From NCBI GenBank assembly GCA_017541465.1, contig JAFXYZ010000008.1, positions 1 through 33,620 of the forward strand: DNA of 33,620 bases, given 5' to 3'. A model generated the notes under the pieces. It ran no database searches. It saw only the letters and a list, made by a program, of their open reading frames with translations, and had not been told where the DNA came from. The DNA comes from a bacterium (lineage in GTDB: Bacteria; Cyanobacteriota; Vampirovibrionia; Gastranaerophilales; Gastranaerophilaceae). Every line of letters begins with the position of its first letter. The first letter of the stretch is position 1. The position numbers and the translations under genes are program-made. This document shows, piece by piece, positions 4,426-32,412 of this stretch.

Positions 4426-4941
4426 ATGGCATTAATTAACGGCTATAACAGCTCATATAATCGGAGCTCACAGTACTATTCTTCATCATCAAGTAAAAAA
4501 ACGACTACAAGTTCAAGTAAAAAGACGAGTAGCTCAAGTCAGTCAGCAAGTGCAAAAGCAGCTCAACAGAGAGCCCAGGCTCAAGCCAGAGCGCAGGCAC
4601 AGGCTAAAGCAAGAGCTCAACAGCAGGCTGCAGCAAAAGCAGCACAGCAGAGAGCTCAGGCTCAGGCTAAAGCTAAAGCACAGCAACAGGCTCAAGCTAG
4701 AGCTAAGGCTCAAGCGCAGGCTCAAGCACAAGCAAGAGCAAAAGCTCAGCAGCAGGCAGCTGCAAAAGCAGCACAGCAGAGAGCTCAGGCAGCAGCTAAA
4801 GCAGCTCAACAACAAGCTCAGGCAAGAGCAAAACAACAGGCTCAACAAAGAGCACAGGCATATTCTTCTTATGCAAAAGCTCAGATTAATATGCAAAAAT
4901 CAAGTTCAAGCAAGAGTTCATCTTCAAGCACTAAAAAATAA
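4426..4941 (+). CDS. Low-complexity Ala/Gln/Lys/Arg protein with Ser-rich ends, function unknown
   Basis: A 171-residue protein of extreme composition. Residues 8-42 are rich in Ser, Thr, Tyr and Lys, residues 43-145 are almost only Ala, Gln, Lys and Arg in a likely long helix, and residues 158-171 are again Ser/Lys. No Asp or Glu occurs anywhere, so it is strongly basic. The decapeptide AKAAQQRAQA appears three times (43-52, 70-79, 113-122), showing internal duplication. There is no signal peptide or membrane segment. A good ribosome binding site (AAGAAAGGA, 4407-4415) and a strong downstream terminator support a real single-gene transcript. The composition is reminiscent of histone H1-like or nucleic-acid-binding tails, but that is only an analogy. 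The codon restriction leaves two other frames open here; I treat those as shadows. Confidence 0.75.
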   Translation: MALINGYNSSYNRSSQYYSSSSSKKTTTSSSKKTSSSSQSASAKAAQQRAQAQARAQAQAKARAQQQAAAKAAQQRAQAQAKAKAQQQAQARAKAQAQAQAQARAKAQQQAAAKAAQQRAQAAAKAAQQQAQARAKQQAQQRAQAYSSYAKAQINMQKSSSSKSSSSSTKK

Positions 4942-7453: not shown

Positions 7454-8074
7454 TTATCTGTGACCTTTTGAAATATTCATTGAATCTTCAAGTAATTCAT
7501 TTTCTCTTCCGTAGTCAGAAGCGCCTGTACCGACTTTACCATCGTATCTGACCTGAATCTTCAACGGGTTAACACTGCTGTCTTTCCAAGTACCATCTTT
7601 ATTGTACTGGTCTTTTCTTGTTACGATAATATCATGAACACTACTGTTTGCAGCATTAGATCCTTTATTTTCAGTACCGAATTTGTAGTTAGCCAATCTC
7701 CACCACATAACACCGTCTGTTGTCATGAAGTCAGGCTTGTGGTTTTGGTCATAAGTTCTGCCGTCAAGGCTTGACCAGGAGTTAGTTCCGCATCTGATTT
7801 CACCCGAAGTGTTTAATGCCTCGGCAACCTGAGAACAGAACTGGCTTCCATCAACATTATCATCTGCCCAATACATGGAAGCATTGGTAGATGCTTTTGA
7901 AATCTCATCAATAGCACTGCTTGCTGCACTTTGCATTGCATACATTGCTTTTTTGTACATAATTTTGTCTTTGTCAGGTCTGACATTATCAAGTACCGGA
8001 ATAAGTATTGCAGCCAAAACTCCGAGTATTGCTAATGTTACAAGAGCCTCTGATAGTGTAAATGCTTTTTTCAT
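7454..8074 (-). CDS. Type IV pilin-like protein (pilin C)
   Basis: A 206-residue protein with a class III prepilin signal: a 4-residue leader MKKA, then FTLSEALVTLAILGVLAA forming the hydrophobic N-terminal helix with the conserved Glu at mature position 5 (residue 9). The residue before the cleavage site is Ala rather than Gly. The globular part has two cysteines (about residues 79 and 95) that could form a disulfide. Family knowledge predicts processing by a prepilin peptidase and assembly into a pilus or pseudopilus; no assembly genes lie in the window. Unlike pilins A, B, D and E it has a short conventional leader without a C-tract, and its C-terminal domain is unrelated to theirs. AAGGCGG provides the ribosome binding site. 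Confidence 0.85.
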   Translation of the reverse strand: MKKAFTLSEALVTLAILGVLAAILIPVLDNVRPDKDKIMYKKAMYAMQSAASSAIDEISKASTNASMYWADDNVDGSQFCSQVAEALNTSGEIRCGTNSWSSLDGRTYDQNHKPDFMTTDGVMWWRLANYKFGTENKGSNAANSSVHDIIVTRKDQYNKDGTWKDSSVNPLKIQVRYDGKVGTGASDYGRENELLEDSMNISKGHR

Positions 8075-16420: not shown

Positions 16421-17218
16421 ATGTTTATTAATAAAAAGAAGTCCGTTCCTACCCCCCCCTACTTCTTTTTGAAGAGAAGTAGGCAAGAAAACTTTCGTAG
16501 TTTTTCAAGTTCAACCAAGTTATGCTTCGCTCCGAATGAAGGTTTTACCCTCGCCGAGGTTTTGATAACTCTTGTTATTATCGGTGTAATTGCTGCAATT
16601 ACCGTTCCTACTCTTATTACCAAATATCAAAAAGAACAAACCATAACAAGATTAAAAAAAGCTTATTCTGCATTAGCCCAAACAACAAACAGGGCTATTG
16701 CGGATTATGGACCGATTGAGACTTGGGAACTAGGTTCAAATAACCCTGATGATGCAAAAATTTTTATTGAAAAATACATTACTCCATATATGAATATTTT
16801 AAAAGCTCCAACAACATATAATGAAGGTTTATGGAATAATCAATTATTTTATTTAAATGGAAGTCAACATAATTATGACAATTCTTATGTACGATTTTAT
16901 TTAAATGATGGTACATCCATTACCAGTCGAATTAGTACATCAAATTCTACACACAAATATATTGCATTACAAATTGATATAAATGGTGATAAAAAACCAA
17001 ATAAACTTGGTAAAGATATATTCAGGTACTACTATATTGTATTACATGATGTACAAAGTATTCAAGGTAAATTTATACCTGATGGTTTTATAACAGACCG
17101 AAATACATTATTAAGTAATAGCAATGATGCTAAATGTAATAAAAATCAATCAGGAAATCAATGCGCAGCAGTAATTATGATGGACGGCTGGCAGATAAAA
17201 GACGATTATCCTTGGTAA
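16421..17218 (+). CDS. Type IV pilin-like protein with long leader and 8-C tract (pilin A, in frame)
   Basis: A 265-residue prepilin. The mature protein starts at Phe42 after Gly41, with FTLAEVLITLVIIGVIAAITVPTL and the conserved Glu at mature position 5. The 41-residue leader is unusually long. It begins MFINKKKSVPTPP, where the PTPP codons contain eight consecutive C (16452-16459), and continues with Lys/Arg/Ser-rich sequence encoded by a hairpin repeat (16459-16482). The globular part contains DINGDKKPNKLGKDIF, a D-x-N-G-loop shared by pilins B, D and E, two late cysteines and the C-terminal WQIKDDYPW also found in pilin D. GAGAGG is about nine bases before ATG. This is the intact state of the C-tract family. 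The body is more AT-rich than the housekeeping genes. Confidence 0.85.
   Translation: MFINKKKSVPTPPYFFLKRSRQENFRSFSSSTKLCFAPNEGFTLAEVLITLVIIGVIAAITVPTLITKYQKEQTITRLKKAYSALAQTTNRAIADYGPIETWELGSNNPDDAKIFIEKYITPYMNILKAPTTYNEGLWNNQLFYLNGSQHNYDNSYVRFYLNDGTSITSRISTSNSTHKYIALQIDINGDKKPNKLGKDIFRYYYIVLHDVQSIQGKFIPDGFITDRNTLLSNSNDAKCNKNQSGNQCAAVIMMDGWQIKDDYPW
16452..16459 (+). repeat. Poly-C tract of 8 in the pilin A leader
   Basis: Eight consecutive C within CCTACCCCCCCCTAC encode Thr-Pro-Pro and keep the leader in frame with the pilin domain. The equivalent tracts in pilins B and D have 7 and 9 C and shift the frame, so 8 appears to be the ON length. Confidence 0.85.
16459..16482 (+). repeat. Hairpin repeat inside the pilin A leader
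   Basis: CTACTTCT (16459-16466) and AGAAGTAG (16475-16482) form an 8-bp stem with an 8-nt loop, directly against the C-tract. Leader codons 14-40 come from this segment and the following sequence, which are absent from the short leaders of pilins B and D. Confidence 0.6.
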
Positions 17219-21671: not shown

Positions 21672-21701
21672 GTGTTATTTTTTTGAAAAACATGGTATTA
21701 T
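21672..21701 (+). promoter_or_regulatory. Pilin-type promoter upstream of pilin B
   Basis: GTGTTA (21672-21677), an 18-bp spacer containing TTTGAAAAACATGG, and TATTAT (21696-21701), 32 bp before the pilin B ATG at 21734. The promoter is intact although the gene is out of frame. Confidence 0.6.
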
Positions 21702-21733
21702 ATAACTACTTCGTAAAAAAAGAGAGGAAAACT

Positions 21734-22407
21734 ATGTTTGTATATATAAAAAGAATTATTCCTACCCCCCCTATAAAAAAGGTTTTACACTTGCAGAAGT
21801 TCTTATTGCTCTTGTAATCATCGGAATAATCGCTGCAATGACAGTCCCGACTTTAAGTAATAAGACAAACAAACAAGAAACAATTGCAAGATTGAAAAAA
21901 ACATATTCAACAATGGCACAAGCAACAAATCAAATAATTGCAGAGAATGGTCCTGTTACTTCTTGGACTACTACAGGTAATGATGTGTACATGCTGTATA
22001 AAAAGAAACTTATAAACGCAAAAGAGTGCAATAAAACTACAGGTTGTTTTACTCAAGGTGATATTTCATATTTAAATGGCGGAACAACTAATTGGACTGA
22101 TGGACATTGGAATAAACTAGTATTGCAAGATGGAACACAAATATTATTTAGCGACGGATTCAACAGTCAATGTAATGATAGTAACATTAATAATCATGAT
22201 GGTTCGAATAATTATTGCGCACGATTCTTTGTTGATTTAAACGGAGCAAGAAAGCCCAATACTTACGGACGAGATATTTTTGTTTTTGTATTAAAGGCAA
22301 ATGGTCTTTATCCTGCTGGTTGTGATAATATAAGCTTATGCAGTAAGGATTATCAAGGTGCAGCCTGTGCATGTAAAGTTCTTAGAGAAGATAAAATAGA
22401 TTATTAA
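21734..22407 (+). CDS. Type IV pilin-like protein, frameshifted by a 7-C tract (pilin B, OFF state)
   Basis: The expected start ATG 21734 (AGAGAGG upstream) begins MFVYIKRIIPTPP but hits a stop after 27 codons, because the leader C-tract (21765-21771) has seven C. The pilin frame itself is open from 21781 (GFTLAEVLIALVIIGIIAAMTV) to the stop at 22407. One extra C fuses the two into a prepilin with a 17-residue leader. The downstream part alone can be read from ATG 21838, but it would lack the prepilin cleavage site and most of the membrane helix. The globular region has several cysteines, DLNGARKPNTYGRDIF and a C-terminal CACKVLRED segment shared with pilin E. Its stop is 2 bp from that of the convergent PBP gene. 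It is a switchable gene or a recent pseudogene. Confidence 0.8.
21765..21771 (+). repeat. Poly-C tract of 7 in the pilin B leader
   Basis: Seven C in the same CCTACCCC-TAT context as the 8-C tract of pilin A. The leader frame from ATG 21734 is one base out of phase with the pilin domain, and adding a single C restores it (47+1 bases = 16 codons to GGT at 21781). Confidence 0.85.
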
Positions 22408-25132: not shown

Positions 25133-25865
25133 TTACCACGGATAATCGTCTTTAATCTGCCAGCCGTCTTTCATGATAAGGGCTGCACATTTAGTTCCAA
25201 ATTTATTTTTACTGCATAAATATTCATCAGAACCTGATATTAAATCACTTCTTGATAGTTCATTACCTGTTGGTACTAATCTTCCTCCTGCTAATTTATT
25301 ACTCGTTACGAGATTATAAGCAAATTCAAAAATATCTCTTCCTACTTTGTTTGGTTTTTTATTTCCATTTATATCAACTTTAATTATTGCTCTTTTATAA
25401 GTAGGTGAATTATTATCAACTTTTACTGCAACAAAAGTACCGTCATTTAAATGAAATCCGGCTGCATAATTGGCATAAGCACCTTGTGCACCATTCAAAA
25501 AATAGAATGTCTTATTCCAATCAGCTTCGCTATAACTTGTAACATTTCCAACTTTTTGAACATATGGTGCAATAAATTTATTTACAAACGCTTTAGTTGC
25601 TGCAGCATTTTGTGCTTCCCCTAACTCCCAAGTTTCTATCGGACCATAGTCTGATATAGCCTTTAAATTTGCTTGTGAAAGAGTTGAATATACTTTTTTT
25701 AATCTTGTAACAGTTTCCTCTTTTTGATGTTTAATAATTAATGTCGGAACGGTAATCGCAGCTATGACGCCTATAATGACAAGAGTTATCAGAACCTCGG
25801 CAAGAGTGAAACCATTATTTTTGTAGGGGGGGGGTAGGAATTAAGTCATTTTTTCTTGTAAACAT
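25133..25865 (-). CDS. Type IV pilin-like protein, frameshifted by a 9-C tract (pilin D, OFF state)
   Basis: ATG at 25865-25863 opens MFTRKNDLIPTPP, but the nine-C tract (25834-25826) moves translation out of frame, and it stops within about 26 codons. The pilin frame is open without interruption from NNGFTLAEVLITLVIIGVIAA (from about 25819) to the stop at 25133. Removing one C gives an intact prepilin with an 18-residue leader. Read alone, this frame has no ATG, GTG or TTG until 25498, so an annotation starting there misses half the protein. Its body matches pilin A: GPIETWELG, DINGNKKPNKVGRDIF, two late cysteines and the same WQIKDDYPW C terminus. A switchable gene is my preferred reading; pseudogene or assembly error are the alternatives. 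Confidence 0.8.
25826..25834 (-). repeat. Poly-C (plus-strand poly-G) tract of 9 in the pilin D leader
   Basis: Nine C on the coding strand in the same CCTACCCC-TAC context as pilin A. From ATG 25865 to the GGT of GFTLAEV is 52 bases, one more than 17 codons, so loss of a single C restores the frame. Confidence 0.85.
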
Positions 25866-31605: not shown

Positions 31606-32412
31606 TTAATAATTTATCGCACCCTCGCGAAGAACTTTGCAGGTACAACCCCAACCTGTTTTATTGCCATCATTATCTGTAGATGTACAATAAGTCAAGT
31701 CATCACACCCATCAGGGTACAAACCATTTTCCTTTAAAACGAAATAGAAACCATCTCGACCAAACATATTAGGCTTTCTTGCACCATTAATATCAACAAA
31801 AATCCAAGCACATACATTATTAGAACCCTGCGATGATTGTGAACAATCGTTATAAACACCTTCAAACATTACTTGCGTTCCATCTGCAAGAACAAGTTTA
31901 CCTCTTGATGTATTACTATTCCAATTATTAGCTATCTTTTTACCACTTAATAGTCTATACCAATTATCACCATCAACTTGATTAAAGCATCCTTCTTGCA
32001 TAGTGCAATCTTTTGCATTATGTAAATGCTTTTTGTATAAATTACTCAAATGTTCTACAGAAGAAGCCCAGCCGCCTTTATCAGCTCTTGGGATTCCTTC
32101 TTCAGCAATAATCAAATTTGTTGCCTGAGCAAGTGTAGAATATGCTTTCTTGAGTTTTGATACATATTCCTGATTATTAGTTTTATTCATCAATGTCGGA
32201 ACAGTTATTGCTGCAATAACACCAATGATTACAAGAGTTATTAAAACCTCGGCGAGGGTAAAAGCACATCTATTCCCTCTCTTTTGGGAGAGGGCTGGGG
32301 TGAGGGTAGATTTTACAGAATTGTTGGGCAAGAATGCCCAACCTACACTATTTTCTAAATCATCGCAACTGTGGGAGGGGGTAGGAATGACTTTATTTTT
32401 CAAATTAAACAT
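31606..32412 (-). CDS. Type IV pilin-like protein with a 50-residue repeat-derived leader (pilin E)
   Basis: A 268-residue prepilin in frame throughout. The mature part starts at Phe51 after Ala50 (FTLAEVLITLVIIGVIAA, Glu at mature position 5). The leader begins MFNLKNKVIPTPS; here the C-tract is interrupted by T (CCTACCCCCTCCC), so it should not slip. It then carries residues encoded by two palindromic units: VGWAFLPNN from the GTTGGGC repeat and TLTPALSQKRGN from the CCCTCTC repeat. The globular part has several cysteines, DINGARKPNMFGRDGF and a CTCKVLREGAINY C terminus like pilin B. From family knowledge, leaders this long are unusual for a prepilin. Cleavage at Ala50 is a prediction. Confidence 0.84.
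   Translation of the reverse strand: MFNLKNKVIPTPSHSCDDLENSVGWAFLPNNSVKSTLTPALSQKRGNRCAFTLAEVLITLVIIGVIAAITVPTLMNKTNNQEYVSKLKKAYSTLAQATNLIIAEEGIPRADKGGWASSVEHLSNLYKKHLHNAKDCTMQEGCFNQVDGDNWYRLLSGKKIANNWNSNTSRGKLVLADGTQVMFEGVYNDCSQSSQGSNNVCAWIFVDINGARKPNMFGRDGFYFVLKENGLYPDGCDDLTYCTSTDNDGNKTGWGCTCKVLREGAINY
32275..32305. repeat. CCCTCTC palindromic repeat inside the pilin E leader
   Basis: CCCTCTC (32275-32281) and GAGAGGG (32288-32294), followed by CTGGGGTGAGGG, match the unit beside pilin D (25091-25124). Here it is read in frame as part of the leader (TLTPALSQKRG), directly before the prepilin cleavage site. Confidence 0.7.
32323..32342. repeat. GTTGGGC palindromic repeat inside the pilin E leader
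   Basis: GTTGGGCAAGAATGCCCAAC has an 8-bp stem and a 4-nt loop and differs by one loop base from 17223-17242 after pilin A. On the coding strand it is read as GWAFLPN within the leader. Confidence 0.75.

Follow-up and report, generated by a model that had tools for sequence, protein, structure and literature searches.

Pilus genes of Neisseria are switched by slippage within repeat tracts, as the consulted sections of PMC5953494 and PMC3711429 describe, and 23 of 607 pilS alleles are given there as carrying repeats (PMC5953494). The leader of type IV prepilins is removed by prepilin peptidase prior to assembly (PMC4471445, sections consulted). Two papers on the bacterial group studied here mention type IV pili, and the terms ‘phase vari’ and ‘homopolymer’ are absent from the main text of both (PMC4451040, PMC5877343); the literature searched, which had preprints and most subscription papers outside its scope, held no report of phase-variable pilins in this lineage.

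We analysed a 33,620-nucleotide stretch of DNA from a Gastranaerophilaceae bacterium (contig JAFXYZ010000008.1; the whole stretch is referred to as the window), in which the start codon of one pilin gene, designated pilin B, stands out of frame with its own intact pilin sequence. The elements of this locus are:

21693–21701, + strand: extended −10-like promoter element TGGTATTAT, 32 nt 5′ of the pilin B ATG (sequence read)
21722–21727, + strand: ribosome binding site GAGAGG of pilin B, common to sister genes (sequence read)
21734–21817, + strand: zero-frame open reading frame of the pilin B leader; 27 codons, in a different register from the pilin
21765–21771, + strand: C7 homopolymer, proposed as the pilin B switch (sequence read)
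21781–22407, + strand: mature pilin B frame (GFTLAEV..., 208 aa), intact (PF07963, TIGR02532, AF2 model)

From the ATG (21734–21736) the zero-frame leader, MFVYIKRIIPTPP.., closes at a TAA at 21815–21817; the GFTLAEV frame begins 47 bases after the ATG and is open for 208 codons until the stop at 22405–22407. Upstream, the promoter-like ATGGTATTAT and GAGAGG are the same as in sister genes. A preliminary description of this DNA had given the ATG, a 7-C tract, a stop after 27 codons and, from 21781, an intact pilin frame in a different register from the start, all of which proved exact on direct reading, and it had held that promoter and ribosome binding site were kept, which is the case for both. 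An A6 run (21775–21780) lies directly 3′ of the C7, so slippage in this leader could also occur outside the C run.

Pilin B scores 21.2 bits against PF07963 (N_methyl), at the cut-off of 21.2, and 22.4 bits against TIGR02532 (cut-off 16.3), and pilin C passes TIGR02532 only. The AF2 model of pilin B (pLDDT 84) places a helix at residues 4–56 followed by strands, an arrangement of long helix and beta domain as expected for pilins. Foldseek with this model gave no match at E ≤ 0.001, and its VIA-align matches were weak, the best rows including FimA (Z 4.9, rmsd 4.3, 129 aligned) and PilE reaching Z 3.8 (rmsd 3.9, 118 aligned), each tied with unrelated chains. One Peptidase_A24 (prepilin peptidase) and four strong T2SSE ATPase matches were found in the host genome.

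The other pilins of the window are:

16421–17218, + strand: pilin A, in frame, C8 at 16452–16459, 40-residue leader
25826–25834, − strand: C9 homopolymer of pilin C; ATG at 25865–25863; out of frame
25133–25813, − strand: mature pilin C frame, intact, 226 aa, out of frame with its own ATG
31606–32412, − strand: pilin D, in frame, C run broken by a T (CCCCCTCCC), 49-residue leader
7454–8074, − strand: pilin E, without homopolymer, ordinary short leader

Runs of C7, C8 and C9 at one position in three genes of a single contig look like a length-variable switch. Elsewhere in the window, positions 4426–4941 encode a 171-aa low-complexity protein with Gln/Ala/Lys/Arg repeats between Ser/Lys-rich ends.

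The reading that we favour, at a probability of roughly 80%, is a phase-variable pilin repertoire in which slippage within a peptidase-removed leader toggles at least 68 pilin genes. Every one of these genes has a homopolymer among its leader codons and, where readable, a promoter-like element, a ribosome site and a start codon of its own. Slipped-strand mispairing during replication would alter the run by one base, and this change would bring the mature pilin frame into or out of register with the start codon, turning the gene on or off, presumably reversibly. As the leader is then expected to be cut off by the prepilin peptidase, neither the run nor any extra leader sequence would change the mature subunit, and the leader can be a pure switch. 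Each leader would toggle the expression of its own pilin independently, so that sister cells may differ in their pilus make-up.

The host genome (2.12 Mb, 74 contigs) contains TTCCTACCCCC 40 times, against none for a reversed control pattern, and all 40 sites lie in pilin leaders, with a ribosome site/ATG before them and a [G/A]FTLAEV-type motif after. A TIGR02532 search recovered 82 prepilin N-termini. A C run is present in 68 of the leaders, and the other 14 N-termini either lack one or have lost the leader at a contig end, a tally that combines the TIGR02532 matches with further sites of eight or more C's and the remaining pilins. Among the matches listed (100 of 108), 66 distinct runs of eight or more C's were placed: 61 in pilin leaders, three in sequence that resembles a leader but is interrupted by a contig end, and two elsewhere. 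These two (L070 and L072, C9 each), the sole long C runs placed outside pilins among the matches listed, look intergenic. In the 65 host genes with a recognised start the run is 5 (interrupted) to 10 bases long, mostly 7–10, and since CCC is rare in the pilin bodies (43 of 508 proline codons), an unbroken C run for the leader prolines is not simply codon usage. Outside the host, TTCCTACCCCC matched in 19 of 99 genomes, and at none of the 19 foreign loci inspected did a pilin motif follow within 399 nt downstream; viral contigs searched with pilin B gave four pattern matches, none confirmed. Contigs frequently break ca. 200–300 nt from a pilin start (contigs C9, C10, C22, C32, C37, C43, C50 and C61 of genome G000, and many contigs of G003), which suggests that the leaders are near-identical repeats and that the pilin counts are probably too low.

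A promoter-like element, a ribosome site and an ATG were seen in the 64 upstream regions, with ATGGTATTAT or GTGGTATTAT in 26 and mostly a TGATAATATA/TGATATTATA-type variant, judged by eye, in the rest. Promoter-like elements and ribosome sites are alike in in-frame and out-of-frame genes (the second promoter type by eye). Their presence with an ATG in these 64 regions sets the genes apart from silent cassettes of the pilS type, which have no promoter and no start.

Among the 65 host genes whose start was recognised by rule, 26 are in frame with the pilin and 39 are out of frame, an in-frame share compatible with one third (p 0.29). The offset is zero in 27, one base too many in 24 and one too few in 14; L098, whose leader has the right length and contains stops, accounts for 27 zero offsets against 26 genes in frame. 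Three tract genes (L068, L077 and L089) fall outside the 65 (contig end or ribosome-site rule), pilin E, L093 and L104 were not captured by the motif used for the frame tally, and one of the 80 ‘distinct’ pilins that this tally gave is spurious (34 aa, in L003). The leaders are stop-free in the pilin register in 64 of 65 genes. Where more than 60 nt follow the run, the pilin frame is open in 41 of 42 leaders, with the other two frames closed in every one of the 42, and such a long leader stays open in 7% of cases on average after a mono-nucleotide shuffle, though long leaders share modules by descent and are not independent in this count.

The bodies behind these leaders are largely intact, 63 of the 65 tract pilins being 202–244 aa long, and purifying selection is equal in out-of-frame and in-frame pilins: across 2,850 pairs from 76 full-length pilins, kept where identity exceeded 50% and dS was usable, median dN/dS was 0.27 for off-off (149 pairs), 0.28 for on-off (151) and 0.28 for on-on (37). 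It is therefore scarcely credible that the out-of-frame pilins are ordinary decaying pseudogenes, for which the two truncated bodies (L004 and L033, 93 and 31 aa) and the stops in the L098 leader would speak, since each truncated body follows its start in frame, and in-frame and out-of-frame genes have equal dN/dS. A lone pseudogene is ruled out by the 40 motif sites, the intact bodies and dN/dS. That the two truncated copies are in frame looks like selection for loss where a pilin is expressed, with n = 2 only. Alternative starts as a general rescue are ruled out as well: the pilin frame upstream has no ATG, GTG or TTG in 27 of the 39 out-of-frame genes, pilin B included, and has a start codon in the other 12, three of these after a ribosome-site-like stretch.

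Changes in run length were compared between genomes and between tandem copies, among relatives that included no second genome of the window's genus. In L258 and L259, from two genomes of one genus, 2,506 aligned columns contain four substitutions and two indels, both indels in the leader; two bases are lost and one gained, and the net one base divides an out-of-frame from an in-frame gene. This change consists of two nearby indels and is no clean one-base slip. L280 and L281 differ over 1,958 columns by 14 substitutions and a single two-base indel at the run, and both are out of frame with different offsets. Tandem leaders in L300 have G12 and G10 between identical flanks (75 nt on the 5′ side and 51 nt on the 3′ side, 126 nt in all), and those in L194 have C11 and C12 with 77 identical nt before and 66 of 68 after. 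Over 22 pairs of related loci (excluding L162/L162 and L300/L300, which at 100% are self-overlaps of adjacent segments, and repeats of one genome: L257, L255, L262, L161) run length differs in 11 and is equal in 11; in L298/L299 the lengths differ and the offset is the same. The equal-length pairs include several C10 pairs, 80–89% identical across species and all out of frame.

The preliminary description had proposed that pilin B is not decaying and that its frame is switched, and had set against this a uniform 7-C tract with stops in the body. That case was not seen, the runs being mostly of 7–10 and the bodies intact, and the proposed switch is supported by the 26 in-frame and 39 out-of-frame genes, the 63 of 65 full-length bodies and a dN/dS of 0.27–0.28 in either state, and is further backed by the run-length changes between near-identical relatives. 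Its scope was too narrow, as at least 68 genes, pilin B among them, share this arrangement.

Homopolymers at this site extend well into the family. Across 36 family genomes the number of prepilins ranges from 0 to 118 and correlates with the number of runs of eight or more C's (rho 0.73). In a search of 191 family genomes, which catches short leaders only, eight G's followed by the pilin motif within 33 nt occurred in 40 genomes (14 of 41 genera), the same arrangement with eight C's in 16 (6 of 41 genera) and either pattern in 44 (15 of 41 genera), each with 0 in the control. The leaders of relatives have G runs (Gly-rich) or C runs (Pro-rich) at the one site, so a feature of the DNA is kept and the peptide is not. 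Named genomes contain at least 108 stretches with the C pattern; 80 of these are listed, and by title 51 belong to Gastranaerophilales/Melainabacteria, two to Vampirovibrio chlorellavorus, 12 to ‘Fusobacterium sp. CAG:439’, 11 to ‘uncultured bacterium’ and four to other groups. The ‘Fusobacterium sp. CAG:439’ pilin loci are 85–88% DNA-identical to Gastranaerophilales MAGs (L137/L167 and L162/L168), and judged by this identity the Fusobacterium label is probably wrong. In Vampirovibrio chlorellavorus, a predatory relative, one pilin leader has 26 C's and is out of frame (L163, LAPX01000001.1, position 6112) and another has nine and is in frame (L159).

Homopolymers are error-prone in sequencing, and most of the compared genomes are draft assemblies; out-of-frame genes could then be an artefact of sequencing or assembly. 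We regard this as very improbable, since runs of 7–9 are short for such errors and errors cannot account for nearly all placed long C runs lying in pilin leaders, nor for 40 (G) and 16 (C) of 191 family genomes against none in the controls.

In relatives with short leaders, in-frame genes are rarer than one third, at 10 of 103 loci with poly-C and 4 of 33 with poly-G, although the 103 take in three chance matches from other phyla (L171, L207 and L211), all in frame, and the poly-C figure is otherwise 7 of 100; 10 of the 146 related sites have no start by rule, and a few loci may stem from one genome counted twice. One offset is common to 79 of the 103 poly-C loci, mostly at C10, and the C10 relatives taken alone would approach a single conserved shift direction. 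Offsets in the poly-G relatives are zero in four and fall 16 and 13 in the two directions (n = 33). The mostly out-of-frame relatives could reflect shared leader ancestry together with a preferred length and selection for ‘off’, or they could reflect slippage at the RNA level. Extended to all of these genes, the latter becomes an alternative in which DNA length is fixed and RNA polymerase or the ribosome slips at the run, with out-of-frame genes expressed at a low built-in level. It would fit the C10 group, where one base out is the rule and this offset is kept across species at 80–89% identity, and RNA polymerase is known to slip on runs of eight or more, chiefly of A or T (PMC3711429, sections consulted). 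We nevertheless consider it unlikely, as it requires a single direction and the poly-G relatives have all three offsets, and run length varies among copies with identical flanks. The three offsets within the host genome (27, 24 and 14) are evidence against one-way recoding there, and rule out a one-way programmed frameshift as the general mechanism.

A broader form of the switching repertoire, towards which we lean slightly, is a combinatorial surface code across the gut Gastranaerophilales. Tens of full pilin genes would each have a cleavable leader as a dedicated switch, built on C or G runs depending on the genus, each cell would present a random subset of more than 60 pilins, and one group would be held one base out by default, as an ‘off’ set point or for slippage at the RNA level.

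Host leaders are 15–79 residues long, and long ones contain extra sequence. A palindromic module, CTTCTTTT..AAAAGAAGTAGGCAAGAAAAC, occurs in several (window 16460–16540; L001, L002, L009 and others) and is read through in the pilin frame. It has 22 matches at up to two mismatches and 18 at up to one, the latter all in pilin leaders by position, and for this commonest module the possibility that the inserted DNA is a genome-wide dispersed repeat fails on these 18 of 18 near-exact copies. Separately, window 32254–32370 and the leaders of L026, L030 and L099 contain sequence encoding PLPSPLPRRGN or GWAYLPNN, which resembles dispersed repeats.

If the phase-variable repertoire is real, one small genome of a commensal lineage contains a very large number of genes from a single family that can each be switched independently. 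It would explain how surface variation could arise in these gut bacteria with no need of donor cassettes, and why their pilins would be missed or truncated by gene callers.

Among described systems, Neisseria pilC (also opa and pgl) is alike in that an in-frame poly-G/C or other repeat tract switches a full-length product on and off (PMC5953494, sections consulted). There, however, the tract lies in a gene for pilus assembly or modification present in one or two copies, whereas here it lies in the pilin genes themselves, in a removable leader, and in at least 68 genes of one genome. The pilE/pilS system of Neisseria shares a large stock of pilin sequence within one genome, but pilS copies are silent donors, while the copies described here have a promoter-like element, ribosome site, start codon and leader of their own, so transfer to an expression site would not be needed. 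Phasomes of Campylobacter and Neisseria (PhasomeIt surveys) likewise comprise many homopolymer loci with independent switching; those span mixed gene classes, whereas the present loci share a single gene family and a single site, in a non-photosynthetic lineage related to Cyanobacteria. With type IV prepilins bearing a class III signal peptide these pilins share the [G/A]FTLAEV N-terminus and a single prepilin peptidase, and they differ in leader length (6–26 residues in the consulted sections of PMC4471445, against the longer range here) and in position −1, which is Ala about as often as Gly. The principle of the switch is thus known, and what is new, as far as the literature searched extends, is its place in the pilins' own leader, its number (68 in one genome) and its lineage.
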